This document shows positions 507 through 47,995 of a stretch of 64,000 bases of DNA, one piece after another. Source of the stretch: Lutimonas zeaxanthinifaciens (GTDB lineage: Bacteria > Bacteroidota > Bacteroidia > Flavobacteriales > Flavobacteriaceae); contig NZ_CP129964.1 of assembly GCF_030503675.1 (NCBI RefSeq), forward strand, positions 2,976,001 through 3,040,000, in the 5' to 3' direction. Under the pieces are notes generated by a model. That model ran no database searches and had not been told where the DNA came from. It saw only the letters and a list, made by a program, of their open reading frames with translations. Positions within the stretch are counted from its first letter, which is position 1, and the number at the start of each line of letters is the position of its first letter. A program made the translations under genes and the position numbers.

Positions 507-2135
507 ATGTCAAACGGATTTTTTAAAGTGCCAAAAGCTGTGAATGAGCCGGTTAATTCATACGCTCCCGGGACACCAGAACACAAAGACTTAATAGCCA
601 CTTACAATAAAATGTTTAATGAAAAGGTAGATATTCCTTTTTATATTGGTAGTGAAGAATACAGAACAGGAAAAACAATCGATATTCATCCTCCCCACGA
701 CCATCAGCATAGTGTTGGACAGTATCATACGGCAGACAGAAAACATATTGAATTAGCCGTGGAAGAAGCGGCAAAGGCCAGAGTCAAATGGGCTAAAACA
801 AATTGGCAGGACCGAGCAGCCATCTTCTTAAAAGCGGCTGAATTGCTGGCGGGGCCGTTCCGATACAAAATGAATGCAGCGACCATGATCGCTCAGTCAA
901 AAAATGTAATGCAGGCAGAAATCGATTCAGCCTGTGAATTGATCGACTTTTTGCGATTCAATGTGGAATTTATGACTGAAATTTACAGCAACCAGCCTGA
1001 ATCAGCACCTGGCATATGGAACAGAATGGAATACAGACCTCTTGAAGGATTTGTTTATGCCATAACGCCGTTTAACTTTACGGCAATTGCTGGTAACCTT
1101 CCAGCGGCGCCTGCCATGATGGGTAATGTTGTTATCTGGAAACCGGCAAGATCACAGGTATATTCTGCAAATGTTATCATGGAATTGTTCAAGGAAGCAG
1201 GACTTCCTGATGGGGTCATCAATATGGTTACCGGTAATTCAAGTACCATTACAGACGTATTATTAAATCATAAAGATTTTTCAGGTGTTCATTTTACAGG
1301 TTCAACTCCTGTATTTGATGATTTCTGGAAAACCATTGGAGCAAATGTAAAACATTATCGTTCTTATCCGAGAATTGTTGGTGAAACAGGTGGAAAGGAT
1401 TTTATCTGGGCCCATCCCTCAGCGAATGCTCAGGAAGTAGCAACAGCCATCTCAAGGGGAGCCTTTGAATATCAGGGGCAGAAATGTTCGGCGGCCTCAA
1501 GAGCTTATTTACCAAAAAGTTTATGGAACGATATACGCGAGTCGGTCATAAAAGATGTGAATTCATTTAAAATGGGATCACCAGCAGATACAGGAAACTT
1601 TATCAATGCAGTCATTGACGATAGAGCCTTTAAAAAATTATCGGGATATCTGGATCAGGCAAAAAAAGACAATGATGCTGAAATTATTGTCGGAGGAGGA
1701 TATGACGATTCAAAAGGATACTTTATAGAACCTACTGTTATCGTTACAACTAACCCTCAATACGAAACCATGTGTACCGAGCTTTTCGGGCCTATCATCA
1801 CCGTTTATGTTTATGAAGATGCCGCGTGGGAAGAAGTACTTGATTTAGTAGATCAAACGGGAGAATATGCACTTACCGGTGCTATTTTTAGTCAAGACAG
1901 ATATGTAATTGCCACGGCTACCAGTAAGTTGGAAAATGCTGCCGGTAACTTTTACATCAATGACAAACCAACTGGTGCCGTTGTAGGTCAGCAACCTTTT
2001 GGAGGAGCCAGAGGATCAGGAACCAACGACAAGGCCGGGTCTGTATGGAATCTTTTAAGATGGGTTTCCAACAGGACGTTAAAGGAGACTTTTGTACCTC
2101 CAACAAATTACAGATACCCTTTCCTGGGAGAATAA
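507..2135 (+). CDS. pruA: L-glutamate gamma-semialdehyde (P5C) dehydrogenase
   Basis: 542-residue NAD(P)-dependent aldehyde dehydrogenase that oxidises delta1-pyrroline-5-carboxylate/glutamate semialdehyde to glutamate, the last step of proline catabolism, in the cytosol. Length and N-terminal sequence are those of the stand-alone bacterial/mitochondrial P5CDH type rather than the bifunctional PutA. Visible are the cofactor-site segment ITPFNFTAI, the GETGGKD motif and the catalytic Cys327 in YQGQKCSA. It is monocistronic, with a strong terminator directly downstream. Proline dehydrogenase is not in the window. It would receive carbon from the 3-hydroxyproline arm encoded near 35-37 kb. Confidence 0.95.
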   Translation: MSNGFFKVPKAVNEPVNSYAPGTPEHKDLIATYNKMFNEKVDIPFYIGSEEYRTGKTIDIHPPHDHQHSVGQYHTADRKHIELAVEEAAKARVKWAKTNWQDRAAIFLKAAELLAGPFRYKMNAATMIAQSKNVMQAEIDSACELIDFLRFNVEFMTEIYSNQPESAPGIWNRMEYRPLEGFVYAITPFNFTAIAGNLPAAPAMMGNVVIWKPARSQVYSANVIMELFKEAGLPDGVINMVTGNSSTITDVLLNHKDFSGVHFTGSTPVFDDFWKTIGANVKHYRSYPRIVGETGGKDFIWAHPSANAQEVATAISRGAFEYQGQKCSAASRAYLPKSLWNDIRESVIKDVNSFKMGSPADTGNFINAVIDDRAFKKLSGYLDQAKKDNDAEIIVGGGYDDSKGYFIEPTVIVTTNPQYETMCTELFGPIITVYVYEDAAWEEVLDLVDQTGEYALTGAIFSQDRYVIATATSKLENAAGNFYINDKPTGAVVGQQPFGGARGSGTNDKAGSVWNLLRWVSNRTLKETFVPPTNYRYPFLGE

Positions 2136-31176: not shown

Positions 31177-31242
31177 CAATTAAACTGTAATTAAATTTCT
31201 ATTAGATTTCCATTCTTTCAACATATAAATGCTTCTTTTGTC

Positions 31243-32674: not shown

Positions 32675-32838
32675 GGAACTTTCAGTTTAACTGATTTTTT
32701 TTTGAGGCATCTGGTTCAGATTGCGATTTGAGACCTGAGTGCAAAAAAATTTTAACAAAACTTTATCATAACAAAGACAATATCTGAGCAACATATAGAA
32801 GGATTGTTACGTTCTCTTTAACTAAACCCTCCTCTATT

Positions 32839-33942
32839 ATGGTAAAAGAATTCTTCTGGATGTGCTCAGGCGCAGATACAGATCTACTTCAAGAAAGTCC
32901 AAAATCTGAGCAAATCAAATATGCAGGTATTGGCGGAACAGTATTTTTTACAGCGGTTATGGCATTTATTTCGAGTGCCTATGCCTTGTATACTGTATTT
33001 GACAACGTCTATCTATCGGTTGTTTTTGGATTGATCTGGGGACTCTTGATCTTTAATCTCGATCGCTTTATTGTTTCAACCATCAAAAAACGTGACAACT
33101 TCTGGCAGGAGTTATTGCAGGCTTCACCAAGAATTGTACTGGCCATAATTATAGCCATAGTGATTTCAAAACCACTTGAGCTAAAAATCTTTCAAAAAGA
33201 AATTGACCGGGTATTACTTGAGCAAAAAAATGAAATGACTTTGGCAAATCAAGTTCAGATTTCAGAACAATATACTCCTGAAATTGAACGTATCGAAAAT
33301 GAGATCGATGCTATAAAGGAAAATGTGAACATGAAAGAGACAGAAGTCAATGAACTGTACGACACCTATATTTCAGAAGCAGAAGGGACCAAAGGCACTA
33401 TGAAACTGGGGAAAGGACCGGTTTATAAGGAAAAAAGAGAAAAACATGATGCCCAACTCAAAGAATTGCAGGCCCTGAAAGAATCGAGCGCTGAAAAGAT
33501 AGAAGTCAAGGAATCTACACTCCTGGACTTGCGAGAAAAACAAAAAGCTCAGGTCATGAACAGTCAGCCCATAATCGATGGTTTCGATGGACTTATGGCC
33601 AGAATTAATGCCTTGAATGAATTGCCCGTAATTCCATCCTTGTTCATTCTATTGCTGTTTATGGCGATTGAAACCGCTCCTGTGTTTGCCAAAGTCATGG
33701 CCCCTAAAGGAGCCTATGACCTAAAATTTGAAGAGCAGGAAGACACTTTGAAAGTATGGGTTTCTCAACAGAAAAACCAGCGGGAAGCCGTTATGCAAAC
33801 GGACAATACGCTCAATGAAAAAGTATACTATGATGTGGCCGAAGATGAAGAAATCTATGAATACAAGCGAAGTAAAGCCAAGGATATACTCAAACTTCAG
33901 TCAGATTCTTTTTACAGGAAGCAGAAAGATGTTTTGGGTTAA
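32839..33942 (+). CDS. DUF4407 membrane protein
   Basis: 367 residues. Two N-terminal membrane helices and one near residue 90 (IVLAIIIAIVISKPLELKIF), then a long charged coiled-coil (about residues 110-250), a further helix (LPVIPSLFILLLFMAIETAPVFAKV) and a cytoplasmic tail. The NLDRFIVSTIKKRD segment after the second helix is characteristic of DUF4407. Function unknown. Confidence 0.85.
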   Translation: MVKEFFWMCSGADTDLLQESPKSEQIKYAGIGGTVFFTAVMAFISSAYALYTVFDNVYLSVVFGLIWGLLIFNLDRFIVSTIKKRDNFWQELLQASPRIVLAIIIAIVISKPLELKIFQKEIDRVLLEQKNEMTLANQVQISEQYTPEIERIENEIDAIKENVNMKETEVNELYDTYISEAEGTKGTMKLGKGPVYKEKREKHDAQLKELQALKESSAEKIEVKESTLLDLREKQKAQVMNSQPIIDGFDGLMARINALNELPVIPSLFILLLFMAIETAPVFAKVMAPKGAYDLKFEEQEDTLKVWVSQQKNQREAVMQTDNTLNEKVYYDVAEDEEIYEYKRSKAKDILKLQSDSFYRKQKDVLG

Positions 33943-35155: not shown

Positions 35156-35231
35156 TATGTAAGCTTCCATTAGTACTTTATTACGCTAAGAACATATTAT
35201 TTTATCTAATTTTAAGGTAATATAGGATTAG

Positions 35232-35266: not shown

Positions 35267-36226
35267 ATGGGTCCTACACCTTTTATTACGGATGATTTTA
35301 TTGAGTCTCATACTGACTTTGGACAATTGATCAATACCCTGAGATCGGGCTTTGCAGAACAGGGAGTTGAAACCCCTATGAGACATCATCATGACTATCC
35401 TAACCCAAAGGAGAATATTGATTCCACCCTGCTCCTTATGCCATCCTGGGAAGCAGGGAAAGATTTAGGTGTGAAAATAGTATCTGTAAATCCAAATAAT
35501 GGCAAATATGATCTACCCTCAATACAAGGCACCTATCTCTACCTTAACGCGCATACCGGTACTTTAAATGCAATTTTTGATGCCAAGGCACTGACTGCAA
35601 AAAGAACGGCGGCAGCCTCAGCTCTTGCAGCCTCCTATCTCGCCCACCCAGAAGCCTCAACTCTATTGATTCTGGGAACAGGAGTATTATCTGCCAATCT
35701 GATAAGAGCCCATGCTACGGCCAGGCCTGTAAATAAAGTATATGTCTGGGGAAGAAATTATGACAAAGCAGTACAAATTGCCGGATTATTTGATCAGGAC
35801 GATGTCGAAGTCATCCCCATTAAAGACTATGATTCCCTTATCCGTGAATGCGATATTATTTCAACGGCCACCCTGTCAAAAGATCCATTAGTTGACGGAA
35901 ACAAACTTCGAAAAGGTCAGCATCTTGATTTAGTAGGCGCCTATAAAAAAGGTATGAGAGAGGCCGATGATGCATGCGTATTGAGATCAAGTGTTTTTTT
36001 AGACACGTATCAAGGAGGATTAAAAGAATCCGGTGACATCGTGATACCACTTCAAAATGGAATTCTAAAACAAGAAGATATCCAGGCCGATTTATTTGAA
36101 TTATGCAGCGGTCAACATCCAGGGCGAAAAAATTCAGATGAGATCACTTTTTTCAAATCGGTTGGACACGCTTCAGAAGATTTATTTGGAGCCCGATATT
36201 ACTTTGAACAGTATAAAAAAAGATAG
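35267..36226 (+). CDS. lhpI: ornithine cyclodeaminase family; probable delta1-pyrroline-2-carboxylate reductase
   Basis: 319 residues of the ornithine cyclodeaminase/mu-crystallin family, with the Rossmann motif LLILGTGVLSANLIRAHA near residue 140, KRTAAASALAASYLA before it and DLVGAYKKGMREAD after it. In bacterial trans-3-hydroxyproline pathways this family reduces delta1-pyrroline-2-carboxylate to L-proline with NAD(P)H. The next gene, with no intervening base, is the dehydratase that makes that imine, which supports the role over ornithine cyclodeaminase or alanine dehydrogenase. The start is ATG 35267; an overlapping ATG at 35263 is out of frame. Confidence 0.8.
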   Translation: MGPTPFITDDFIESHTDFGQLINTLRSGFAEQGVETPMRHHHDYPNPKENIDSTLLLMPSWEAGKDLGVKIVSVNPNNGKYDLPSIQGTYLYLNAHTGTLNAIFDAKALTAKRTAAASALAASYLAHPEASTLLILGTGVLSANLIRAHATARPVNKVYVWGRNYDKAVQIAGLFDQDDVEVIPIKDYDSLIRECDIISTATLSKDPLVDGNKLRKGQHLDLVGAYKKGMREADDACVLRSSVFLDTYQGGLKESGDIVIPLQNGILKQEDIQADLFELCSGQHPGRKNSDEITFFKSVGHASEDLFGARYYFEQYKKR

Positions 36227-37297
36227 ATGAAAGCGAAGAAAACTTTCGACAGAATTCAGCAAAAAAAAAGCTATGAGCCCCGAAGTGAATGGCTTCAGAT
36301 CAAAACCATTGACATGCACACAGGAGGTGAACCTCTTAGGGTGATCACTGAAGGTTTTCCCGAACTCAAAGGGAATTCAGTGCTTGAATACAGACGTTAT
36401 TGCAAAGAAAACCTCGATCATTTGAGAACAGCGCTGATGTTTGAACCCAGAGGCCATGCCGATATGTATGGTTGTATTTTAACACCCCCTAACGATGAGG
36501 AAGGAGATTTTGGGGTTATTTTTCTACACAATGAGGGCTACTCCACGATGTGTGGACATGCTATCATTGCCTTGACTACACTTTGTGTTGAAATGAACTG
36601 GATCCAGGTAAAGGAGGGAGAGAATGAAGTGAAAATTGACGCCCCCTGCGGACGCATCAATTCTTATGCAAAGGTTAAAAGCGGAAAAGTAGAGGGTATA
36701 AGATTTCATTGTGTACCTAGTTTTGTTGCAGGACTGGACCAAACTGTTGAGGTCAATGGCATAGGAATCGTAACTTATGACCTTGCTTATGGAGGTGCAT
36801 TTTACGCTTATGTCGATATGGCAAAAAACAATTTTGATTTCGACCTGTCAAAAGCATCGTATCAAAAATTGATCAAAACCGGAATGGACATAAAAAAAGC
36901 TGTGATAAAAAAAGATGATTCGGTAGCGCATCCCTTTGAACAAGACCTGAGTTTCCTCTATGGAACCATTTTTACAGGAGAGTCAAATCATAAACATATT
37001 GACAGCAGGAATGTGTGTATTTTTGCTGATGGAGAAGTAGATCGCTGCCCAACCGGATCAGGGGTATCAGGAAGAATGGCTATCCATTATCTAAGAAATG
37101 AAATAAAGATCGGAGAAAGAATGAGTATCGAGAGTATAACCGATTCTGTTTTTAAAGGATCCGTAGTTGAAGAAATCGATTTTGGCCCGTTTAAAGCTGT
37201 AGTACCCCAGGTTGAAGGGACCGCCTATATAACAGGAATGCATACCTTTGTTATTGACCCTGATGATGCGATGAAATACGGATTCATACTTCGTTAA
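36227..37297 (+). CDS. lhpH: trans-3-hydroxy-L-proline dehydratase (proline racemase superfamily)
   Basis: 356 residues. The proline racemase fold is shown by IDMHTGGEPLRV and by Cys109 in TMCGHAII. At the second catalytic position the enzyme has Thr276 in DRCPTGSGVSG, where racemases and epimerases carry Cys (DRSPCGTG). Cys/Thr pairs mark trans-3-hydroxy-L-proline dehydratases, which form delta1-pyrroline-2-carboxylate. Thus it differs functionally from the Cys/Cys paralogue at 43.4-44.4 kb. It starts directly after the reductase stop codon (TAGATG), so the two are tightly coupled. Confidence 0.85.
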   Translation: MKAKKTFDRIQQKKSYEPRSEWLQIKTIDMHTGGEPLRVITEGFPELKGNSVLEYRRYCKENLDHLRTALMFEPRGHADMYGCILTPPNDEEGDFGVIFLHNEGYSTMCGHAIIALTTLCVEMNWIQVKEGENEVKIDAPCGRINSYAKVKSGKVEGIRFHCVPSFVAGLDQTVEVNGIGIVTYDLAYGGAFYAYVDMAKNNFDFDLSKASYQKLIKTGMDIKKAVIKKDDSVAHPFEQDLSFLYGTIFTGESNHKHIDSRNVCIFADGEVDRCPTGSGVSGRMAIHYLRNEIKIGERMSIESITDSVFKGSVVEEIDFGPFKAVVPQVEGTAYITGMHTFVIDPDDAMKYGFILR

Positions 37298-37300
37298 CAC

Positions 37301-40300
37301 ATGAACAATACAACGTATACTGACTTGCTGATAAGTACTAGAGAGGCACAAAAAGTGCTTTTGGAACTCTATGGAATTCAGGGAAAGGCCCAAAGGCTTC
37401 CCGGGGAATACGATATGAATTTTAAAATTACCCTGAAGGAAGGTGCCCGTTATATTCTTAAGATATCAAGACCTGATACGGATTTGGATTCACTCCATTT
37501 TCAACAAGAACTGTTGGATCATCTTAAGCACTCTGCAGCCGATTTAAAGGCTCCGGAAACATTTGCAGATCTGTCCGGAAATTCCATTGCTTTTTATACG
37601 GATCAAAACAAAAAACAAAGAGCCGTAAGGTTGTTGAGCTGGATACCCGGCCGGATTTATAACGAAGTTCATCCCAAAAATTCGAGCTTAAGACAAAGTC
37701 TTGGATTGTGTTGTGGAAGGCTAAGCGCAGCACTTGAAAATTTTGAGCACCCCTGTGCACACAGGACATTTGAATGGGACCTGTCTAATTCACTCTGGAC
37801 AGCAGATCATATTGAAATTTTTGAGCCACAGGAGCGAACCATCATCGAATACTTTCAAAAGAGGTTTAAATCATTTCAAGAAGAATATCAAAAACTTCCG
37901 AGATCAGTTATTCATAACGATGCAAACGATTTCAATATCCTGGTCAATGAAGATTTGAAAGAACCTCAAGTCAGAGCCGTTATCGATTATGGGGACTCCA
38001 TTTATTCTCAAACGATCAATGACCTTGCAGTGTGCTGTGCGTATGGAATAATGAATCTTAATGATCCGCTTTCAGGGGCCATTGACATTGTGAAGGGATA
38101 TCATGATGGAAGGGTAATTCAGCAGAAAGAATTATCATTTGTGTATGATTGTATTGCGATGCGGCTGATAATCACACTTACAAAGTCGGCCTTGAACAGA
38201 ATAAAGGAACCCGATAATGTATACCTTCAGATAAGTGCCAAACCGGCCTGGGAGCTTTTACGTTCCTGGAAAGAAATCAGCCCTGAATTTGCCCATTACA
38301 GTTTTCGACAAGCCTGTGGATATACTGGGCATCCAAATGAAAACAAGTTTAAAAAGTGGTCATCAGGCAAGAAATTTGAACTTCAAAATCTATTCCCTTC
38401 TGTTCCTGTAAAAAACTGTTATAATCTTGATTTAAGTGTCTCGAGCAAATGGTTGGGTCATCTTAGCGACTTTGCTGATTTTGAATATTTTGAATACAAG
38501 ATAAACAGGCTTCAAAAGAAACATCCGAAAAAAATAATTGCTGGCGGCTATCTTGAACCGAGACTTGTGTATAACACCGAGGCCTATCAAAAAAAAGGGA
38601 ATGAACGCAATGAAAACAGAACGATCCATCTTGGAATCGATTTTTGGCTTAGTCCCGGGACACCGGTTCACACGCTTCTTGACGGGGAGGTGATTGTCGC
38701 TGCAAATGATGAAGGAGACAAGGAATACGGAGGGCTGGTCATCTTAAAACACAGGGCTGAAGATTTTGAATTTTATAGCCTTTATGGCCATCTTTCGGTG
38801 AAAAGTGCCACTTCTTTAAAACCCGGAGAGCTTCTAAGGTCCGGGGATCGGGTAGGTATTCTTGGAAACTACCCTGAAAACGGGAACTGGCCTCCGCATT
38901 TGCATTTCGAAATCATGCTGTCCATGCTCGATTTTGAATTTGATTTTCCCGGGGTGGCATATCAGAGTGAAATCAAAACCTGGAAAAGTATTTGCCCTGA
39001 TCCAAATCTTTTATTCCAAATCGAATCCCTTAATCCGTACCAGAGCGAAAAGAATCAGGACCTTATAAAATTCAGGCAGGAATTTCTGGGAAAAGGAATG
39101 AGCCTGTCCTATGAGGAACCACTTCACATTGTCAGAGGAATGGGTCCTTACCTCATCGATCAGCAAGGTGTCATGTATCTTGACACGGTAAACAATGTGG
39201 CCCATGCCGGACATGAGCATCCCGCCGTAGTAAAAGCCGGCCAGGAACAGATGGCGCTGTTGAATACCAATACACGGTATTTACACAAGAATATCATCAG
39301 AGCAACCGAAACTCTTTTATCCACTTTCCCTCCGGAGCTGTGTGTTGTACATTTTGTAAATTCAGGAAGCGAAGCCAATGAACTGGCTATAAGGATGGCC
39401 AAAACCGTTACGGGAAAACAAGATATTATAGCCTCCGAAATGGGCTATCATGGAAATACAAATACGTGTATCGAAATCAGCTCGTACAAGTTTGATGGAA
39501 AAGGAGGTGCAGGTTGCCCGGAGCATACCCATATTTTTCCAATCCCCGATAAGTTCAGGGGGAAATACAGGGGGAAGAATGCAGGAGAGAAATATGCCCG
39601 GGAGGTAAACAGTATCATTGAGAAATTAAGAGCTGAAGAAAAATCTCCGGCAGCGCTTATTGTTGAACCCATAATTAGTTGCGGAGGACAGGTTGAATTA
39701 CCAAAGAACTTTTTAAAACATAGCTATAGATCAGTTAGAAAAGCAGGAGGTTTATGTATTTCTGATGAAGTTCAGGTGGGTTGCGGACGTGTTGGGTCGT
39801 CCTTTTGGGGATTTGAATTGTATGATGTAGTTCCGGATATCGTAACCATTGGCAAACCGCTTGGTAACGGACATCCTGTAGCAGCTGTAGTTTGTACCAG
39901 AGACGTTGCCGATAAGTTTGCCAATGGTATGGAGTATTTCAATACCTTTGGCGGGAATCCGGTTTCCTGCGCCATTGCAAATGCGGTACTTAAGGTGGTT
40001 AAAAATGAGAATCTTCAAAAAAATGCATTGCAAACCGGCGACTATCTCAAAGAAGAATTAACAAGACTAAGCCAATCTTATCCCATTTTAAAAGATATTA
40101 GGGGGCAAGGCCTGTTTTTAGGAATTGAGCTAACCGATGAAAACCTTAATCCATTAGCGGATAAGACAAAATACCTGGCCAATAGAATGAAGGACAAAGG
40201 TATCTTAATGAGCGTTGACGGACCGGATCACAATGTTCTCAAGATAAAACCACCCATGGTATTTTCCCCGGAAAACGCGAAAAGCCTTATAGATGCATTA

Positions 40301-40336
40301 TCCTTAGTCCTCGGAGAAGATTTTATAAAACTCTAA
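37301..40336 (+). CDS. trifunctional fusion: hydroxylysine kinase-like, M23 peptidase, phospho-lyase (class III aminotransferase)
   Basis: 1011 residues with three domains. Residues 1-340: APH-fold kinase with HNDANDFN (205-212) and DYGDS, closest in type to hydroxylysine kinase (human HYKK). About 430-560: M23/LytM metallopeptidase with H443 and D447 in HLGID, YGHLS, and H533/H535 in HLHFE, so the zinc site looks intact. About 575-1011: class III PLP enzyme with D822 in DEVQVGCGR and PLP lysine K852 in GKPLGNGHP, of the PHYKPL/ETNPPL phospho-lyase group. HYKK phosphorylates 5-hydroxylysine and PHYKPL converts it to 2-aminoadipate semialdehyde, phosphate and ammonia. The neighbourhood favours hydroxylysine over ethanolamine. 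No signal peptide, so cytosolic, which is odd for an M23 domain. It starts 3 nt after the dehydratase. Confidence 0.85.
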
Positions 40337-40347
40337 AATAATTATTT

Positions 40348-40776
40348 ATGAAAAATATAGTACTCTTATTGACTGTAGCTCTGCTTAGTTCCTTTAACGG
40401 AATTGATACTGAAGATGATAAAGATGCAATCAGAAAAGTAATGGCTGATCAACTGGAGGCCTGGAACAATTATGACCTCGAAGGTTTTATGCAGGGTTAT
40501 TGGAAATCAGAGGAATTGAAATTTTACGGAAGTAACGGGGTAACTTATGGCTGGAAAAACACTCTGGCCAGGTACAAAAAAGCCTATCCTTCTAAAGACT
40601 ATTCCGGAACTTTAAAGTTTGTCATTAATGACATATCAAAGATTTCCAAGGACGCCTACTATGTGATGGGGGAATACCATCTGGAACGATCTGTGGGAAA
40701 TGCTGATGGAATCTTTATGATAATCTTTAAAAAAATCAAAGGAGAATGGAAGATCATTTCAGATACCTCCTGCTAA
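40348..40776 (+). CDS. exported DUF4440/NTF2-like protein
   Basis: 142 residues. A short signal peptide (MKNIVLLLTVALLSSFNG) and an NTF2-like domain: AIRKVMADQLEAWNNYDLEGFMQGYW, FYGSNGVTYGWKNTLARYKKAYP, and a C-terminal GEWKIISDTSC, the usual DUF4440 pattern. It starts 11 nt after the fusion gene and is probably the last cistron of the hydroxyproline/hydroxylysine operon. Its ligand is unknown. It ends 34 nt before the convergent peptidase gene. Confidence 0.78.
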   Translation: MKNIVLLLTVALLSSFNGIDTEDDKDAIRKVMADQLEAWNNYDLEGFMQGYWKSEELKFYGSNGVTYGWKNTLARYKKAYPSKDYSGTLKFVINDISKISKDAYYVMGEYHLERSVGNADGIFMIIFKKIKGEWKIISDTSC

Positions 40777-40810
40777 ACTATCAGCTATCGTAAACCTTGG
40801 TAAAAAAACT

Positions 40811-42106
40811 TTAGCTTTTAGCCATTAATTTTTCAATTTCTTCAATTTCAATTGGCATTTCCTGGGTGAGATTGATATTTCCATCGATGGTGATGAGGTA
40901 ATCATTTTCCAACCGACAACCAATTCCTTCTTCAGCAATGTAAATGCCAGGTTCGCAGGTCAGGACCATTCCTCTTTCAAAAGGTCTTGAATATAATCCT
41001 ACATCATGAACATCAAGGCCAATGTGATGAGCTGTTCCATGCATAAAATACTTCTTATACAAGGGATGATCAGGATCCTGCTTATCAACATCTTCCTTAG
41101 AAATCAAACCAAGACCGATCAGTTCGGCTTCGACCAATTTAGCCATTTGCTCTTCATAATCTTTAGGTACAATCCCCGGCTTTAACAATTCAGAACCAGT
41201 TTTAAGACACCTTAATACTGCGGAATAAACTTCCTTCTGTCGCTTAGAAAATTTTCCATTTACAGGGAAGCAACGTGTCGTATCAGAATTATAATTACCA
41301 TAACAAACACCAAAATCCATTAAAATCATGTCCCCCTCTTTACAGACATCATCATTGTCGTTGTAATGTAAAGCACAGGCATTTGAACCTGAGGCAACAA
41401 TGGGTTTAAAGGCATGACGCTGGGCTCCCTCTTTAATGAGATTATAACTTAATTCAGCCTCCAAAGCGTATTCTTTAATTCCGGGCTCTACCTTTTTCAA
41501 TACCCTCTCAAACCCCTGAATACTAATTTTTGCCGCCTTCTTTATCATTTCCACCTCCTCCTTCGTCTTGATCTGCCTTAAGGACCTGGTAATTTTTGCA
41601 GCCCGAAAATAATCATGAAGAGGATACTTTTTTCTGCACCAGTTGATCAACCTGTCCTGTCGGGTTTCCATATCCTTGGTCACCCTTTTGATATGTTCGT
41701 TGTGGCCAAGATAGAATCCATCTGCCTCAAAGGCCATTAATTGAAGTATTTTTTCAAAATCATCAACCCATTCGACCCTGGAAATTCCTGATAATGCGCT
41801 AGCCTGTTCAGCCGTCAGCTTATCTCCTTCCCAGATCTTAATTTGTTCATTGGTTTCCTTTATGAATAAAATCTCTCTGTTTTCAGCCTTGTAGGCATCC
41901 GGATAGAGCAACAGGATCGTTTCCTCCTGATCAATACCCGACAAATAAAGGAGATCATTGTTTTGTGCAAAACCCATACTGTCATCCGCATTGGTAACCT
42001 GAATGTCATTTGAAGCGAGAAGGGCAATAGAGTTGGGAAGCATCTCTTTTGAAAATTCTTTCCTGTTCTTTTTATATACTGTCGAAGGTATGCTTTGATA
42101 TCTCAT
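40811..42106 (-). CDS. pepP: Xaa-Pro aminopeptidase (aminopeptidase P, M24B)
   Basis: 431 residues from ATG 42106; an in-frame ATG at 42145 would overlap the oxidoreductase gene by 32 nt. The N-terminal AMP_N domain is followed by the pita-bread M24 domain: LMDFGVCYGNYNSDTTRCFPV with the two metal Asp, HGTAHHIGLDVHD with the metal His, and LTCEPGIYI and GCRLENDYLI with the two Glu. It removes the N-terminal residue from peptides with Pro (or Hyp) in second position. As the last gene of the 4-hydroxyproline operon, 7 nt after the oxidoreductase, it probably feeds imino acids from collagen-like peptides. Confidence 0.92.
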   Translation of the reverse strand: MRYQSIPSTVYKKNRKEFSKEMLPNSIALLASNDIQVTNADDSMGFAQNNDLLYLSGIDQEETILLLYPDAYKAENREILFIKETNEQIKIWEGDKLTAEQASALSGISRVEWVDDFEKILQLMAFEADGFYLGHNEHIKRVTKDMETRQDRLINWCRKKYPLHDYFRAAKITRSLRQIKTKEEVEMIKKAAKISIQGFERVLKKVEPGIKEYALEAELSYNLIKEGAQRHAFKPIVASGSNACALHYNDNDDVCKEGDMILMDFGVCYGNYNSDTTRCFPVNGKFSKRQKEVYSAVLRCLKTGSELLKPGIVPKDYEEQMAKLVEAELIGLGLISKEDVDKQDPDHPLYKKYFMHGTAHHIGLDVHDVGLYSRPFERGMVLTCEPGIYIAEEGIGCRLENDYLITIDGNINLTQEMPIEIEEIEKLMAKS

Positions 42107-42113
42107 TCTTAAG

Positions 42114-43358
42114 TTAAAATTTTCTGGATGGATTATAGGGTTCAAGATCTATCGAGGATTTTCTATTCGATATAATTTCTGAAATTAATTTACCTGTTCC
42201 CGTTGCCATGGTCCAGCCCATCATGGCATGCCCTGTGGCTAAAACCAGATTGGGGCAATCATTGGTACGCCCTATAAAGGGAAGACCATCCGGAGAGAGC
42301 GGCCTTAAGCCCGAAGAAGCCTTTTGAAGTGATTTTTGATCAATGGCCAAACCTTTGTAATAATCGGCGGCAGCATCTGCAATTGCTTTCACTCGTACCT
42401 GGTTCACATCATCATTGATCCGGGCGATCTCCATGGTCCCGGCAAATCTCGTAAACCCATTCATTGGCGTAACGGCAACCTTCGATTCCACAAGAATGGC
42501 CGGAAGACTGATTCCTGTTTCTTCGTTCACGTCAATCCTGTATCCCTTTCCGGCCTGCAATAAGATTTTGACCCCAGCTTTTTCAGCAATCTTTGCGGTC
42601 CATGAACCTGCTGCTAGTATAAATTCTTCAGCTTCATATCTCGATCGAGTTGTTATTGCTGCTGAGATTCTGTTGTTTTTTAGTTCCAGGTCCTGAACCT
42701 CCTCATTGTGATGAATCCTTACCCCTTTTGACATCAGATAGTCTTTTAGATTCGTCATAAATTCTGTAGGGGTAGAGTGTGCATCACACTGGAAATAAGT
42801 GGCTCCAATCACATCGAGGTCTACATGGGGTTCAAGATTTTTCAGTTCTTCCAGATTGAGAACCTGAGCTGCAAGATTGACATCATTAGCCATCTTAACA
42901 ATTTTAGATTCTTCTTCGAGCATTTTTTCTGTCTTGCACAACATGAGTAGCCCTTTATTCTCAAAATGAAAATCGAATTCAGGATCCTTTCTGATTGATT
43001 CATACAATTCATGACTAAAAACAGAGATATCCCTGATGGCCGGGATCGCTTTTTTAACATGTGAATCTGTACAACTTTTATTAAAGGCCCAGGCCCATCG
43101 TAAAAAATCAGTATCCAATCGAGGTTTTACGTAGAACGGGCTGGCAGGATCAAACATCCACTGAATTCCTTTTTTTACAACCCCAGGTGCCGATAAAGGA
43201 ATTATATGGCTGGGTGAAATATATCCGGCATTGACATATGAGGCCCCGGAATCCATGTCGGACTGATCCAAGACGGTTACTTCATGCCCTTCTTTGTGGA
43301 GAAAATAAGCCGTACACAAACCTATAACTCCTCCTCCAATTACCACACATTTTTTCAT
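42114..43358 (-). CDS. FAD-dependent D-amino acid dehydrogenase, probable cis-4-hydroxy-D-proline dehydrogenase
   Basis: 414 residues of the DadA/DAO family. The FAD motif VIGGGVIGLCTAYFL is at residue 5; the C-terminal GLRPLSPDGLPFIGRT and ATGHAMMGWTMA are the DadA pattern. In bacterial trans-4-hydroxyproline pathways this enzyme oxidises cis-4-hydroxy-D-proline to delta1-pyrroline-4-hydroxy-2-carboxylate. The gene follows the 2-epimerase by 28 nt, which fixes the likely substrate. It seems to be a single-subunit type, without the small Fe-S partners of the heteromeric enzymes. Confidence 0.85.
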   Translation of the reverse strand: MKKCVVIGGGVIGLCTAYFLHKEGHEVTVLDQSDMDSGASYVNAGYISPSHIIPLSAPGVVKKGIQWMFDPASPFYVKPRLDTDFLRWAWAFNKSCTDSHVKKAIPAIRDISVFSHELYESIRKDPEFDFHFENKGLLMLCKTEKMLEEESKIVKMANDVNLAAQVLNLEELKNLEPHVDLDVIGATYFQCDAHSTPTEFMTNLKDYLMSKGVRIHHNEEVQDLELKNNRISAAITTRSRYEAEEFILAAGSWTAKIAEKAGVKILLQAGKGYRIDVNEETGISLPAILVESKVAVTPMNGFTRFAGTMEIARINDDVNQVRVKAIADAAADYYKGLAIDQKSLQKASSGLRPLSPDGLPFIGRTNDCPNLVLATGHAMMGWTMATGTGKLISEIISNRKSSIDLEPYNPSRKF

Positions 43359-43386
43359 AGTGATCTATTCAAACTTTAATCCATTC

Positions 43387-44397
43387 TCAAATTACCTGAA
43401 ATCCGAAGGCATAAGGATCATCTTCATCATCAATAATGATTGTATTGTGTCCAAAGACTTTGGCCCATCCCTGAATACTCGGAATGATCGCTTTCTTTCC
43501 CATAAGCTCCGTTTCTTCTTCGATCCTTCCGGTAAACCTTGATCCAATATAACTTTCATGTATAAAATCCTCTCCTTTTTTCAACAATCCTTTGGCATGT
43601 AGTTGAGCCATTCTTGCTGAGGTACCCGTACCACACGGAGACCGGTCAATCGCCTTATCACCATAAAAGACAGCATTTCTTCCGGAGGAGGTCTTGTGAA
43701 TGGTGTCTCCTGTCCATAACATATGGCTGACCCCATTTATAGATTCGTTCTCGGGATGTACAAAATAATCAGGGTAAAGCTCATTTATTCTGCTTCGAAC
43801 AACCTGAGAATATTGTATGATTTGAGAAGCCTTAAAATCCTGGATCCCAGAATAATTTTTCTGAGGATCAACAATGGCGTAAAAATTTCCGCCATATCCA
43901 ACATCAAAAACCAGTTCTCCCAATTCCGGGCAATCAACGGTCAGATTTTGAGCAGCGAGGTAACTTTTTACATTGGTTAATTTTACCCACTCCACTTTAC
44001 CGCTATTTTCTTTATAAGTTATATCAACGAGCCCCGCAGGTGATTCCATACGCACTCGGCCGGGAGTTTTTGGCCTTATTAATCCTTCTTCAATTCCTAT
44101 GGTGATCGTACCAATGGTACCATGGCCGCACATAGGCAAACATCCCGAGGTCTCAACAAATAAAATTGAAAAGTCATTCTCCGGATCATGTGGAGGGTAC
44201 AGGATACTGCCACTCATCATATCATGGCCACGGGGTTCGTACATCAAACCTTTTCTGATCCAGTCAAAATCCTTCATAAAATGAAGTCTTTTCTCATTCA
44301 TGGTATTTCCTTTTAATTCAGGAATACCAGTGGTGATGACCCTTACCGGGTTTCCACAGGTGTGACCATCAATACATTTAAATATGCTTTTCGCCAT
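43387..44397 (-). CDS. 4-hydroxyproline 2-epimerase (proline racemase superfamily)
   Basis: 336 residues. Both catalytic cysteines are present: C90 in MCGHGTIG and C255 in DRSPCGTGTSARMA, the arrangement of proline racemases and 4-hydroxyproline epimerases. The operon (D-hydroxyproline dehydrogenase, deaminase and semialdehyde dehydrogenase) indicates the epimerase role: trans-4-hydroxy-L-proline to cis-4-hydroxy-D-proline. The paralogue at 36.2 kb has Thr at the second position and acts as a dehydratase. It lies 79 nt after the aldehyde dehydrogenase gene. Confidence 0.9.
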   Translation of the reverse strand: MAKSIFKCIDGHTCGNPVRVITTGIPELKGNTMNEKRLHFMKDFDWIRKGLMYEPRGHDMMSGSILYPPHDPENDFSILFVETSGCLPMCGHGTIGTITIGIEEGLIRPKTPGRVRMESPAGLVDITYKENSGKVEWVKLTNVKSYLAAQNLTVDCPELGELVFDVGYGGNFYAIVDPQKNYSGIQDFKASQIIQYSQVVRSRINELYPDYFVHPENESINGVSHMLWTGDTIHKTSSGRNAVFYGDKAIDRSPCGTGTSARMAQLHAKGLLKKGEDFIHESYIGSRFTGRIEEETELMGKKAIIPSIQGWAKVFGHNTIIIDDEDDPYAFGFQVI

Positions 44398-44476
44398 TTT
44401 TCTTATCTCTCAAAAAGCTGGTATCTTCAGCTGTATATATGAATTGCATGCTTCATTTAAAGCACAGGTCGTTAAA

Positions 44477-46060
44477 TTAAAGAGGTTCCGAACTTAATTC
44501 ATTGTTCACTAACCTTACAATACCAAGAGGATTCTCGTTTTTTAGCGCATCCGGTAACAAATGATCCGGCCAGTCCTGAAAACTAAATGGCCTGACCCAT
44601 CTTTTTATGGCGTTGATCCCCACTGCTGTAAACCGGCTGTCGGTCGAGGCAGGATACGGACCCCCATGGACCATTGAAGGACATACTTCTACTCCGGTAG
44701 GCACTCCATTAAAGATGATTCTGCCTACTCTGTTCTTAAGTGCATTAACAATGCCATTATAGTCATTTGCCTCATTTCCTTCAGCTATCAAAGTTCCTGT
44801 TAACTGCCCTTCAAGCTTGTAAATGATCTCCTCAAGTTGTTTTTTATTTTCACATTGAACAACCATGGTAAAAGGGCCAAATACCTCCTGATGCAACAAC
44901 GGGTTTTCAAGAAAAGTTCTCCCCTGAACAGTGGTTACTGCCTGTCGAGCCACATTATTTCCGGTGGTATCATCGTATTGAGCCACTAAGGTAATTCCTT
45001 CCTGAGAAAGGGCTTTTTTCTTGTTGTTTTCATAAGCACCAATTATATTCGGATGCAACATACAACCCGGTTCGATGGCAGTGATCGCTTTGGCTAATTC
45101 TGAAATAAAATTGTCGAGCGAACTCCCCTTTATACCAAATAGAAGGCCCGGATTCGTACAAAACTGACCCGTTCCTAGCGTAACGGAACCGGCGTAGGTC
45201 TTAGCCAGGTCTGTTCCTCTTTGATCAAGTGCCTTAGGCAAAAAGACCACTGGGTTAACGCTTCCCATCTCCGCAAACACGGGTATGGGCTCCTCTCTTT
45301 TGGCAGCAAGATCGTAGAGGGCCCGACCTCCATTGATACTTCCCGTGAATCCAACTGCCTTTACTTTGGGATGCTGCACCAGCTGGACGCCAACTTCGAT
45401 TCCACTGCTGTTAAGATTTGAAAAAACCCCCACAGGCATTCCTGTTTTTTGAGCCGCTTTGATGATTGCTGAGGCCACCAACTCTCCTGTTCCTGCATGC
45501 ATTGGATGTGACTTCACGATCACAGGGCAACCAGCCGCTAATGCCGCCGCCGTATCCCCTCCTGCAGTTGAATAAGCCAAAGGGAAATTACTTGCTCCAA
45601 AAACCACAACGGGCCCGAGCGGTACCATCATCTTTCTTAAGTCAGGTTTTGGAATCGGGCTTCGGTCCGGAATAGCAGTATCGATATGAGCCTCAACCCA
45701 ATCTCCTTTTTTTACCAAATCGGCAAAACTCCTTAGTTGAAAAATCGTTCTGCCTCTTTCTCCCATTGCTCTTCCTGCAGGAAGCCCTGATTCAGCGCAA
45801 TAGGTTTCGATCAATTCCTCACCAAGAGCTTCAATTTCATCTGCTATCGCATTTAGGAATTCACTTTTGGATGCACCAGACACCAACTGATAACTACTAA
45901 ATGCCTCCCAGGCCAGATTCACTGCATTGTCTATTTCCTCATTGGAGGCTTCATAAAAATCATATTTATTTTCCTCGTTGCTGACAGGGTTAAAGGTCTT
46001 GAACAACTTCCCTCCTTTAGCAGACAATTGCCAGCCGATGTGATTTTTTCCTGTTATCAT
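44477..46060 (-). CDS. alpha-ketoglutarate semialdehyde dehydrogenase (NADP-type aldehyde dehydrogenase)
   Basis: 527 residues. The aldehyde dehydrogenase fold is shown by VPLGPVVVFGASNFPLAYS, AEMGSVNPV and the catalytic Cys301 in GTGQFCTNPG. The sequence has the character of KGSADH enzymes of hydroxyproline and sugar-acid pathways (FGASNFP, PVIVKSHPMHAGTGE). It oxidises alpha-ketoglutarate semialdehyde to alpha-ketoglutarate, the last step of 4-hydroxyproline catabolism. It might also act on 2-aminoadipate semialdehyde from hydroxylysine; that is speculation. Second gene of the operon, 39 nt after the deaminase. Confidence 0.88.
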   Translation of the reverse strand: MITGKNHIGWQLSAKGGKLFKTFNPVSNEENKYDFYEASNEEIDNAVNLAWEAFSSYQLVSGASKSEFLNAIADEIEALGEELIETYCAESGLPAGRAMGERGRTIFQLRSFADLVKKGDWVEAHIDTAIPDRSPIPKPDLRKMMVPLGPVVVFGASNFPLAYSTAGGDTAAALAAGCPVIVKSHPMHAGTGELVASAIIKAAQKTGMPVGVFSNLNSSGIEVGVQLVQHPKVKAVGFTGSINGGRALYDLAAKREEPIPVFAEMGSVNPVVFLPKALDQRGTDLAKTYAGSVTLGTGQFCTNPGLLFGIKGSSLDNFISELAKAITAIEPGCMLHPNIIGAYENNKKKALSQEGITLVAQYDDTTGNNVARQAVTTVQGRTFLENPLLHQEVFGPFTMVVQCENKKQLEEIIYKLEGQLTGTLIAEGNEANDYNGIVNALKNRVGRIIFNGVPTGVEVCPSMVHGGPYPASTDSRFTAVGINAIKRWVRPFSFQDWPDHLLPDALKNENPLGIVRLVNNELSSEPL

Positions 46061-46099
46061 TTAGTTTTCGTTTTTTAATTTTTCTATTTATTCAAATCG

Positions 46100-47017
46100 T
46101 TACAGATTTTTATAATCAGGTAGCAGGGGCCTGTTCTTGATGGCCTCATCAATAATGGCCAAAACTTTTTTCCTTTCTTCTCCAGCCAATGGTAATCGCG
46201 GTTCTCTTACATTCTCTGTCCCTATTCTGGTGGCTACTTCTGCCAGTTTGATATTCTGTACTAATTTAGTGTTTATATCTAATTCCAACAATGGTAAAAA
46301 CCATCTGTAAATCGCAATGGCTTCATCAGTTCTGCCAGCTTTTGCCAATTCGTAAATCGCAACCGTTTCGGCAGGAAACGCACAAACCAAACCGGCGACC
46401 CAACCATCAGCTCCGATCAAAAGGCTTTCCAGGGCCAAGGTGTCAACCCCGCATAAAATGGCCAGCCTGTTTCCAAATCGATTTCTGATTCTGCTGATGT
46501 TTGAAATATCTCTTGTTGATTCTTTTACGGCCTGAATATTGGGACACTCTCTTAAAAGTTCTTCAAACATATCCAGGGTGACCTCAATCCCATAATCAAC
46601 CGGATTATTATAGATCATGATCGGCAAACTGGTGCTTTGTGCAACCTTTTTAAAATAGGTGACGGTTTCCCTGTCATCTGCCTTGTAACGCATTGGAGGC
46701 AACATCATCAATCCGCTTGCTCCATCCTCTTCGGCCATTCTTGCAAGTTCAATGGCAGCTTTGGTAGATTGCTCCGCAATATTGATGATGACCGGCACGC
46801 TTCCTTTTACAAAAGCAACAGTTTCTCTTACCAGTGTTCTTTTTTCCAGTTCGCTTAATGTACTTGCCTCTCCCAATGTTCCTCCAAGAATAATACCGTG
46901 TACCCCTGCATCAAGTTGAGCCTGTATATTTACTTTAAAATTATCCAGATCCAATTCATCCTGATCCGTAAATTTGGTTGTTACAGCGGGCATAACCCCT
47001 TTCCATTGTATTGTCAT
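46100..47017 (-). CDS. lhpC: dihydrodipicolinate synthase family; probable delta1-pyrroline-4-hydroxy-2-carboxylate deaminase
   Basis: 305-residue TIM-barrel Schiff-base enzyme. GGTLGEASTLSE near residue 41 and QAVKESTRDISN, containing the Schiff-base Lys, are diagnostic of the DapA family, and IYNNPVDYG holds the Tyr. In hydroxyproline operons a DapA homologue deaminates and dehydrates delta1-pyrroline-4-hydroxy-2-carboxylate to alpha-ketoglutarate semialdehyde, and every other step of that route is here. First gene of the minus operon, with a TAnnTTTG box 19 nt upstream and a divergent AraC gene. Confidence 0.87.
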   Translation of the reverse strand: MTIQWKGVMPAVTTKFTDQDELDLDNFKVNIQAQLDAGVHGIILGGTLGEASTLSELEKRTLVRETVAFVKGSVPVIINIAEQSTKAAIELARMAEEDGASGLMMLPPMRYKADDRETVTYFKKVAQSTSLPIMIYNNPVDYGIEVTLDMFEELLRECPNIQAVKESTRDISNISRIRNRFGNRLAILCGVDTLALESLLIGADGWVAGLVCAFPAETVAIYELAKAGRTDEAIAIYRWFLPLLELDINTKLVQNIKLAEVATRIGTENVREPRLPLAGEERKKVLAIIDEAIKNRPLLPDYKNL

Positions 47018-47036
47018 AATTGAAATTGTTTTTATG

Positions 47037-47044
47037 CAAAATTA
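47037..47044 (-). promoter_or_regulatory. candidate -7 promoter box of the 4-hydroxyproline operon
   Basis: TAATTTTG on the minus strand, 19 nt before the deaminase ATG, matches TAnnTTTG. Confidence 0.45.
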
Positions 47045-47083
47045 TAGGAAGATTTGTATTGCTTTTTCATTTAAATTATCAAT

Positions 47084-47097
47084 ATGTAGTACTATAT
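47084..47097. promoter_or_regulatory. near-palindrome in the AraC/operon divergent region
   Basis: ATGTAGTACTATAT is a 14-bp palindrome with one mismatched pair, centred between the deaminase operon and the AraC gene. A possible regulator site; weakly supported because the region is AT-rich. Confidence 0.25.
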
Positions 47098-47152
47098 TAC
47101 CCCTATTTTCATATTAATTACTATTTTTGAATAATATTTGCCTAAAAATAAA

Positions 47153-47995
47153 ATGAAGGTATTTCCATTTAAGATTCCGAAGCCTGAAAATTCCACCCTG
47201 ATCGTGCAGAATGACAAAGTGGATATGCTCTATAATAAACTACATCAGCATCAAGAAATCCAAATCAGTTATGTTATAAAAGGTGAAGGCAATTGTATCA
47301 TTGGAGATTATGTTGGAGAATTCAAAAAAGACGATATTTTCATAATTGGTGAAAATGTACCTCATGTCTTCAATAATGACCCTTCAGATGAAGGGGTTCA
47401 TGTGATCTCATTATTTTTCACCGAGTCCAGTTTTGGTCAGCATTTTTTTGAGTTTCCCGAATTTAAAAGATTCAACAACATTTTCCAAAGGGCTTCCCTC
47501 GGCATAAAAATTAAACCTAAATCCGATCAACTTGTTTTACTTTTTTCCAAAATCGATTCAAAGACTAAATTTGAAAAATTTATCGATTTTATGCATATCC
47601 TTCAATTTATTTCCAGAGAAAAACTTGAAACCTTATCCTCTGAAATTCACAACAAATCTTATGGCGAGGAAGAGGGTAAAAGAATGAGAGATATTTTTGA
47701 ATTTTCGCTGTCAAAATACGATGAGAACATTTCGCTTGATCAAGTTGCTGAGATCGCCAATATGACGCCAAATGCCTTTTGCCGCTATTTCAAGCAGCGG
47801 ACAAACAAAACCTATATCAATTTCCTGCTCGATATCAGAATCGAAAACGCTTGTAAACTTTTAGCTAAAAAATCAGACCTTAGCATTGCCGAGATTTCGT
47901 ATCGGAGTGGATTTAATAATCTTACCAATTTCAATCGGAAATTCAAATCGATCAAAAGCATGACTCCTTCTGAATTCAGGAAAAGAGCGAAATAA
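47153..47995 (+). CDS. AraC-family transcriptional regulator with cupin domain
   Basis: 280 residues from ATG 47153 (an in-frame TTG occurs five codons upstream). An N-terminal cupin (KLHQHQEIQISYVIKGEGNCIIGDY) senses a ligand; the C-terminal double helix-turn-helix (SLDQVAEIANMTPNAFCRYFKQ and SIAEISYRSGFNNLTNFNRKFK) binds DNA. It is divergent from the 4-hydroxyproline operon, the usual position of a local activator. The likely inducer, a hydroxyproline-pathway compound, is inferred from position only. Confidence 0.9.
   Translation: MKVFPFKIPKPENSTLIVQNDKVDMLYNKLHQHQEIQISYVIKGEGNCIIGDYVGEFKKDDIFIIGENVPHVFNNDPSDEGVHVISLFFTESSFGQHFFEFPEFKRFNNIFQRASLGIKIKPKSDQLVLLFSKIDSKTKFEKFIDFMHILQFISREKLETLSSEIHNKSYGEEEGKRMRDIFEFSLSKYDENISLDQVAEIANMTPNAFCRYFKQRTNKTYINFLLDIRIENACKLLAKKSDLSIAEISYRSGFNNLTNFNRKFKSIKSMTPSEFRKRAK

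Follow-up and report, generated by a model that had tools for sequence, protein, structure and literature searches.

A candidate regulon for collagen-derived residues in Lutimonas joins two hydroxyproline routes to a putative hydroxylysine kinase/phospho-lyase fusion

Which compounds, and from what natural source, would feed the enzymes encoded at positions 35267–47995 of a 64,000-nucleotide stretch of the Lutimonas zeaxanthinifaciens genome? The stretch, hereafter the window, covers positions 2,976,001–3,040,000 of the 3.53-Mb single-contig genome (NZ_CP129964.1). An initial annotation based on the letters of the sequence had placed two convergent operons here, and the ORF list together with Pfam and NCBIfam profile searches identified ten open reading frames (ORFs) that fill the island as two convergent sets (Table 1). 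Nine of the ten agreed by Pfam family with the functions named earlier; the tenth, previously unnamed, encodes a DUF4440 protein. The island holds genes assigned to the degradation of trans-4- and trans-3-hydroxyproline (Hyp) and a three-domain fusion protein for which hydroxylysine is the proposed substrate. We consider it likely that the whole island is a single regulon with which a Lutimonas-like flavobacterium uses residues derived from collagen.

Operon 2 would convert trans-4-hydroxy-L-proline to 2-oxoglutarate through successive action of an epimerase, a dehydrogenase, a deaminase and a semialdehyde dehydrogenase. This route had been described as complete, and it stands as far as the epimerase, which scored above its cutoff, and the families and order of the genes are concerned, with an FAD-dependent D-Hyp dehydrogenase, a DHDPS-family deaminase and a 2-oxoglutarate semialdehyde (KGSA) dehydrogenase encoded together; these last three pass no NCBIfam equivalog cutoff, and their predicted activities were assigned via family and neighbourhood. 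In operon 1, whose first three genes are separated by 0 and 3 bases, a dehydratase and a reductase would turn trans-3-hydroxy-L-proline into L-proline. Of this two-step route the reductase scored above its cutoff and the dehydratase below its own, so that the latter was assigned by its family, the signature of its active site and its neighbours: the gene abutting that of the OCD-family reductase encodes a racemase-family member in which the second Cys is replaced by Thr (C109 within MCGH, T276 within PTGSG), and such a Cys/Thr pair is given as the t3HypD signature in part of the text of a study of these families (PMC4113996). The Xaa-Pro aminopeptidase and the AraC regulator named at the outset were both confirmed by Pfam (Table 1), and the former, an M24 enzyme, would release residues from Xaa-Pro peptides. 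The products of the island would be taken onward by enzymes encoded elsewhere in the genome, namely a proline dehydrogenase, the gene for which is present, a P5C dehydrogenase (Table 1) and an unlinked, antiquitin-related P6C/aminoadipate-semialdehyde dehydrogenase (NF050084, 830.6 bits, cutoff 730); all three presumably have a part in the general use of lysine and proline as well.

The third gene of operon 1 encodes a polypeptide of 1011 residues that had been recognised as a kinase/phospho-lyase fusion. Both of these domains are present, and there is a third, an M23 peptidase domain, which had not been named. An APH-type kinase (Pfam match at residues 31–253, the domain extending to about 345) is followed by the M23 domain (Pfam match at residues 442–539) and a class III pyridoxal phosphate (PLP) phospho-lyase (about 586–1004). 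The three-domain APH-M23-aminotransferase III model NF004799 (PRK06148) matched over nearly the whole length with 1108.3 bits against a cutoff of 1128. On our proposal the fusion would phosphorylate 5-hydroxy-L-lysine and then eliminate phosphate and ammonia, yielding 2-aminoadipate semialdehyde. Among 81 aligned fusion sequences the M23 positions H443, D447, H533 and H535 are invariant, as are D229 of the kinase and the PLP lysine K852 (81 each), while of the other kinase motif positions H205 is kept in 77, D207 in 80 and N209 in 79. The four M23 positions are presumably metal ligands, and D229 and K852 are taken to be catalytic. Although the M23 positions are kept in 81 of 81 sequences, one relative (L107) dispenses with the M23 domain. 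No export signal was recognised on the fusion, and a loose lipoprotein pattern matched 7 of 80 fusions. Its closest named relative is from Lutimonas saemankumensis (84% identity), and a Flavobacteriaceae metagenome-assembled genome encodes a protein with 97% identity.

The kinase domain had no sequence match in the PDB up to an E-value of 0.1, and a fold search was therefore used. AlphaFold models were of high confidence (pLDDT 93.4 for the kinase alone, 89.9 for the whole fusion). Ranked by E-value, homoserine kinase came first, amicoumacin and N-acetylhexosamine kinases occupied ranks 2–7, and aminopropanol kinase (6ef6) and ethanolamine kinase stood at ranks 8 and 46, respectively. We count the first place of homoserine kinase and the eighth of aminopropanol kinase in favour of the main reading; as the fold is near to kinases of such different substrates, it does not name that of the fusion. 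Among solved structures, the lyase domain came closest to human phosphoethanolamine phospho-lyase (48% identity) and a phospholyase from A. aurescens (40%). These matches, with the aminopropanol and ethanolamine kinases at ranks 8 and 46, favour the strongest competing explanation, that the protein is an ethanolamine (or amino-propanol) kinase/phospho-lyase merely located in a Hyp island, its acetaldehyde or propanal product being used elsewhere. The argument from nearest structures is weak, since no phosphohydroxylysine lyase is named among the solved lyase matches listed (best 60 of 188; 50 in a second comparison). Sequence and modelled fold by themselves are compatible with ethanolamine as substrate, and the genomic surroundings of the fusion were more informative.

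A scan of one genome per species returned 133 relatives of the fusion; the comparison of neighbours used the best 80 loci, many with short flanks. In the flanking DNA examined, Hyp genes were found at 29 of the 80 loci, sugar genes at 44 and either group at 55; for the 47 loci flanked on either side by more than 8 kb, the respective counts were 21, 32 and 38. The sugar-gene groups, named through Pfam on one member each, comprised a GH63/MGH1-like glycosidase (30 loci), a GH2 beta-galactosidase (32), aldose 1-epimerase (14), galactokinase (10), GalT (5), SusC/SusD-type proteins (12/9) and a sodium symporter (7). A GH63 gene lies immediately before the fusion at 23 loci and a GH2 gene immediately after it at 27, giving the row GH63-fusion-GH2 at 18; both glycosidases are present at 27. 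Four loci (L018, L029, L032 and L042) encode the full set of epimerase, GH63, GH2, galactokinase and GalT, the order in L032 being epimerase, GH63, fusion, GH2, symporter, galactokinase, GalT. The Hyp and sugar modules are joined in a Polaribacter locus (L044), which reads reductase, t3HypD, regulator, aldose epimerase, GH63, GH2, fusion, GH2, DUF4440, M24, D-Hyp dehydrogenase, 4HypE, DUF885 and KGSA dehydrogenase. A homologue that is only 40% identical (L087) is still found beside DHDPS, 4HypE and D-Hyp dehydrogenase genes. This recurrence of the grouping argues against a chance assembly. In one genome (G096) a GH63-GH2 pair is situated inside a Hyp cluster without the fusion (L094), the M23-less kinase-lyase L107 being encoded on another contig, and in two more (G209, G240) a GH63-fusion-GH2-SusCD locus is separate from the Hyp cluster (L108–L111), arrangements which indicate that the fusion is tied to the glycosidases at least as tightly as to the Hyp genes.

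Among solved structures, the GH63 protein is closest to YgjK of E. coli (3w7s and others). The YgjK segments WESG.D and ENY.P aligned with invariant residues, although the segment with the Asp did so only in a weak match of its own, scoring 0.4 bits. The alignments of this study were made on subsets (A1, 18 of 30 GH63; A2, 18 of 37 GH2; A3, A4 and A5 with 16, 45 and 44 rows). We take these segments to hold the catalytic Asp and Glu of YgjK. The loose lipoprotein pattern matched 26 of the 30 GH63 and 27 of the 37 GH2 proteins. The GH63 family also includes the alpha-1,2-glucosidase of N-glycan trimming. Collagen hydroxylysine bears Glc-alpha-1,2-Gal, as stated in part of the text of PMC8626586, which also describes human PGGHG as removing the glucose from Glc-alpha-1,2-Gal-hydroxylysine, the reaction proposed here for the GH63 proteins of the relatives; PGGHG and the bacterial alpha-1,2-glucosidase FjGH65A differ from them in belonging to another glycosidase family, GH65. 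The natural substrate of YgjK itself is described as unsettled in part of the text of PMC9061262, and YgjK stands apart from the flavobacterial proteins with their frequent lipoprotein pattern. Taken together, a glycosidase of the alpha-glucosidase type, a beta-galactosidase, genes of galactose metabolism and a kinase/phospho-lyase for amino alcohols would suit Glc-Gal-hydroxylysine, not ethanolamine.

Co-occurrence was assessed across the family in 299 genomes from 236 genera, of which 72 carried the fusion, 30 GH63, 34 t3HypD and 153 4HypE; GH2 was excluded from these statistics because the family is broad. The set of 72 takes in fragments and split genes (for example in G037, G206, G225, G277 and G293) and leaves out two genomes with a kinase-M23 form, 37 with a lyase match in a frame of about 750 residues and two ambiguous ones. 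The fusion was present in 27 of the 30 GH63 carriers (odds ratio (OR) 45, p 6e-16), 27 of the 34 t3HypD carriers (OR 19, p 4e-13) and 59 of the 153 4HypE carriers (OR 6.4, p 1e-9), p-values that ignore kinship, no correction for phylogeny having been applied. Where both partners occurred in a genome, the fusion was within 30 kb of GH63 in 25/27, of t3HypD in 14/27 and of 4HypE in 26/57, the last count omitting G216 and G221, two of the 59 genomes, which have no listed 4HypE position. Altogether 45 of the 72 fusion genomes have GH63, t3HypD or 4HypE within 30 kb of the fusion. The linkage seen in the window is thus retained in many relatives and absent in part (25 of the 80 loci with neither gene group in the DNA examined). 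A lack of conserved linkage in relatives, which would have refuted the initial annotation, was therefore not what the genomes showed. A quick tree was built from 76 fusion proteins, 48 of them labelled; on it the Hyp linkage must have changed 10 times or more and the GH63 linkage 8 times or more, counts that do not separate gain from loss. The associations accordingly recur.

All 30 GH63 and all 34 t3HypD genomes contain the fusion, a lyase in a frame of about 750 residues, the kinase-M23 form or, once, an ambiguous fragment. Lyase matches in the shorter frame were found in 37 genomes, the single one read (L107) being the kinase plus lyase without M23, and this form provisionally never shares a genome with the fusion, two candidates per genome having been scored. 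Two genomes, G033 and G259, encode the kinase-M23 part only (L098:8852-10606, 585 aa; L099:8757-10505, 583 aa). The ORF of at least 120 aa that follows is 153 aa (L098) or 157 aa (L099) long, too short for a class III lyase, and t3HypD is also present in both genomes, on other contigs.

Given the GH63, GH2 and galactose neighbours and the Glc-Gal carried by collagen hydroxylysine, comparative genomics supports hydroxylysine over ethanolamine as the better candidate substrate of the fusion. An ethanolamine enzyme would leave unexplained both the flanking sugar genes and the repeated link to the two Hyp routes, and we regard it as unlikely. Beyond the window, we put at about even the chance that flavobacteria, along with some other Bacteroidetes, have a locus devoted to the collagen O-glycan, in which the GH63 lipoprotein would take glucose off Glc-alpha-1,2-Gal-hydroxylysine, the GH2 lipoprotein would take galactose into the Leloir route and the fusion would consume the hydroxylysine. 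The M23 domain may then cut hydroxylysine from short glycine-rich peptides inside the cell, and the genus of the window would keep the amino-acid half, joined to both Hyp routes as one regulon, the GH63 half having been lost or never present.

Two further sources have to be weighed. The hydroxylysine recycled by the fusion might come not from collagen but from amino-acid lipids in the membranes of the bacteria themselves. Hydroxylysine lipids are reported for Pseudopedobacter saltans, a member of the Bacteroidetes, in part of the text of PMC4484230, where the head group is probably hydroxylated elsewhere than in the 5-hydroxylysine standard. In favour of this source, linked Hyp genes are missing from many fusion genomes, but lipid turnover requires neither GH63 and GH2 nor Hyp genes, and this origin seems to us very improbable. 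A similarly slight chance attaches to Hyp-rich plant or algal glycoproteins as the material served by the island, with the glycosidases acting on their sugars and the fusion on an unrelated amino alcohol: 4-Hyp is also found in plant and algal cell-wall proteins and GH2 is a broad family, yet the trans-3-Hyp route and the amino-alcohol kinase/phospho-lyase would be left unexplained, and GH63 lies within 30 kb of the fusion more often (25/27) than of t3HypD (10/16 genomes with both) or 4HypE (9/23; further to this count, GH63 and 4HypE are on different contigs in G231 and G270).

That the collagen-derived residues would be handled by one regulon is suggested by a motif, TARTMCTATATTACC, common to the 120-bp gap between the DHDPS and AraC genes and the gap upstream of operon 1 (sites in Table 1). 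The motif was first noticed in the window and tested afterwards. With up to two mismatches it matched three times in the window against 0.57 expected, a count reached in 4/100 shuffles; a narrower pattern gave two matches against 0.12 expected (reached in 1/100), and another shuffle control reached the observed count in 10/200. We regard the controls of 10/200 and 4/100 as moderate. The DHDPS-AraC site is kept in 4/4 aligned species, within a gap that is conserved overall, and the inverted site upstream of operon 1 shows at most one change in 4/5 species and is lost in L056. Over the 80 loci (1.5 Mb) there were seven exact matches to 13 bases, compared with two after shuffling; one lies inside an ORF and six at the two promoters, in L009, L010, L011 (twice), L012 and the more distant L027. 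Because L010 hardly differs from the window and conservation extends over the entire DHDPS-AraC gap, only L027 provides evidence from a distant locus. From the motif shared by both promoters we infer that the two operons probably form one regulon; the AraC protein may bind this motif and would switch on both operons, probably through it.

Several observations weigh against the reading of the island as a regulon for collagen residues. Besides the uninformative kinase fold, the phosphoethanolamine-type lyase relatives, the neglect of kinship in the p-values and the moderate shuffle controls, 13 of the 72 fusion genomes have no 4HypE. At 25 of the 80 loci neither Hyp nor sugar genes appear in the DNA examined, flanks often being short, and in six (L047, L048, L058, L060, L064 and L073) the fusion adjoins genes for PNPase, sigma-70 and other general functions. 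No transporter was recognised among the island proteins by the Pfam scan. No GH63 was found in this genome or in two other genomes of the genus, and neither GH63 nor GH2 is encoded beside the fusion in the window; the GH2 relative in the genome itself (40% identical) is unlinked and lies beside a galactokinase-like gene. A linked collagenase or U32 peptidase was also missing: there is no M9 collagenase in this genome, and the only U32 gene (a 428-aa frame) is far from the island. In the family, M9 was detected in one of 299 genomes (G123) and in 0/14 control genomes, so that the sensitivity of the search rests on that one match. With M9 absent here and in 298/299 genomes and the lone U32 gene unlinked, a direct attack on collagen fibrils is not supported. 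As an alpha-glucosidase of the genome itself, a single GH65 gene (PRK13807) is present; it is unlinked and is not claimed for this role.

Vertebrates reportedly possess a hydroxylysine kinase and 5-phosphohydroxylysine and phosphoethanolamine phospho-lyases of the same families as the fusion parts, as set out by Veiga-da-Cunha in 2012; bacterial kinase-lyase fusions are said to have given the clue to these enzymes, their bacterial substrate not being tested there. Unlike the fusion, the vertebrate kinase and lyase are reportedly separate proteins without an M23 domain. Among known bacterial systems, the collagen cluster of Colwellia BB5 (PMC7883544), as described in part of that source, is likewise a marine island with 4HypE, D-Hyp dehydrogenase, KGSA dehydrogenase, a pyrroline reductase/OCD protein and Pro/Hyp peptidases, and Hyp genes share one island with an Xaa-Pro peptidase in the window also; it differs in belonging to a gammaproteobacterium and in having an M9 collagenase, a transporter and a TonB receptor, and the word 'hydroxylysine' occurs 0 times in the main text. 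Bacterial 4-Hyp and trans-3-Hyp gene neighbourhoods (PMC4113996) contain the same enzyme families and the Cys/Thr signature and, in part of that text, promiscuous family members with neighbours from both Hyp pathways. They include no kinase/phospho-lyase, the terms 'aminoglycoside', 'phosphotransferase', 'hydroxylysine' and 'aminotransferase' each occurring 0 times in the main text.

Hyp clusters of both kinds (PMC4113996) and a marine collagen cluster with M9 (PMC7883544) are thus already known from the parts of these sources cited. Among the open-access literature matches listed (titles and abstract starts), with subscription journals mostly uncovered, none described a hydroxylysine kinase/phospho-lyase of bacteria together with genes for Hyp use or glycosidases. 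Within the literature searched, three features appear to be new: a hydroxylysine step is joined to both Hyp routes, GH63, fusion and GH2 stand in a row, and the two operons have a promoter motif in common. If correct, our proposal would provide a substrate for a bacterial kinase/phospho-lyase fusion whose family model, NF004799, is titled 'hypothetical protein', would add hydroxylysine and its glycan to a bacterial collagen route so far made up of hydroxyproline and proline, and would make GH63, GH2 and the fusion concrete candidates for freeing and using glucosyl-galactosyl-hydroxylysine.

Table 1. Genes and promoter motif sites of the island and an associated gene, in coordinates of the window
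Feature	Position	Strand	Basis or remark
Delta1-pyrroline-5-carboxylate (P5C) dehydrogenase of proline catabolism, downstream of trans-3-Hyp route, not adjacent	507..2135	+	TIGR01236 777.8 bits, cutoff 613.6
Weaker motif copy, 2 mismatches	35171..35185	+	Upstream of operon 1
Promoter motif TAATCCTATATTACC, inverted, exact	35216..35230	-	Upstream of operon 1
Delta1-pyrroline-2-carboxylate reductase, OCD/mu-crystallin family (second trans-3-Hyp step)	35267..36226	+	PF02423; NF004793 357.7 bits, cutoff 322
Proline-racemase-family protein, t3HypD-like	36227..37297	+	PF05544; best NCBIfam match t3HypD 383.8 bits, below cutoff 540; C109/T276
APH kinase-M23-class III PLP phospho-lyase fusion, proposed hydroxylysine kinase/5-phosphohydroxylysine phospho-lyase	37301..40336	+	Pfam, NF004799, models
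DUF4440 protein	40348..40776	+	Pfam
M24 aminopeptidase P (Xaa-Pro aminopeptidase)	40811..42145	-	PF00557, PF05195
D-amino-acid-dehydrogenase-like FAD enzyme, proposed cis-4-hydroxy-D-proline dehydrogenase	42114..43358	-	PF01266; NF001933 284.6 bits, below cutoff 383; neighbourhood
4-Hydroxyproline 2-epimerase (4HypE), Cys/Cys pair C90/C255	43387..44397	-	NF010578 576.8 bits, cutoff 376
Aldehyde dehydrogenase, proposed KGSA dehydrogenase	44477..46060	-	PF00171; solved relatives 3v4c, 1eyy; neighbourhood
DHDPS-family protein, proposed deaminase of 4-Hyp route	46100..47017	-	PF00701; neighbourhood
Promoter motif TAGTACTATATTACC, exact	47087..47101	+	Between DHDPS gene and AraC gene
AraC-family regulator, divergent from operon 2	47138..47995	+	PF12833 and cupin matches

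The DUF4440 gene that closes operon 1 is present in 21 of the 80 related loci. A DUF885 protein is encoded at 11 (for example L057:17214-18944), several times between 4HypE and KGSA dehydrogenase, and a peptidase role for it is only a guess. Upstream of the island, at 31274–33942, lie genes for an M20 peptidase and a DUF4407 membrane protein; DUF4407 recurs in 14 of the 80 loci and a 466-aa ORF, an M20 peptidase by place and length, in 8, so that the conserved block may extend further left than the island. Further upstream, positions 29824–31179 encode a protein with a GFO/IDH/MocA oxidoreductase domain and a GH109 C-terminal domain.

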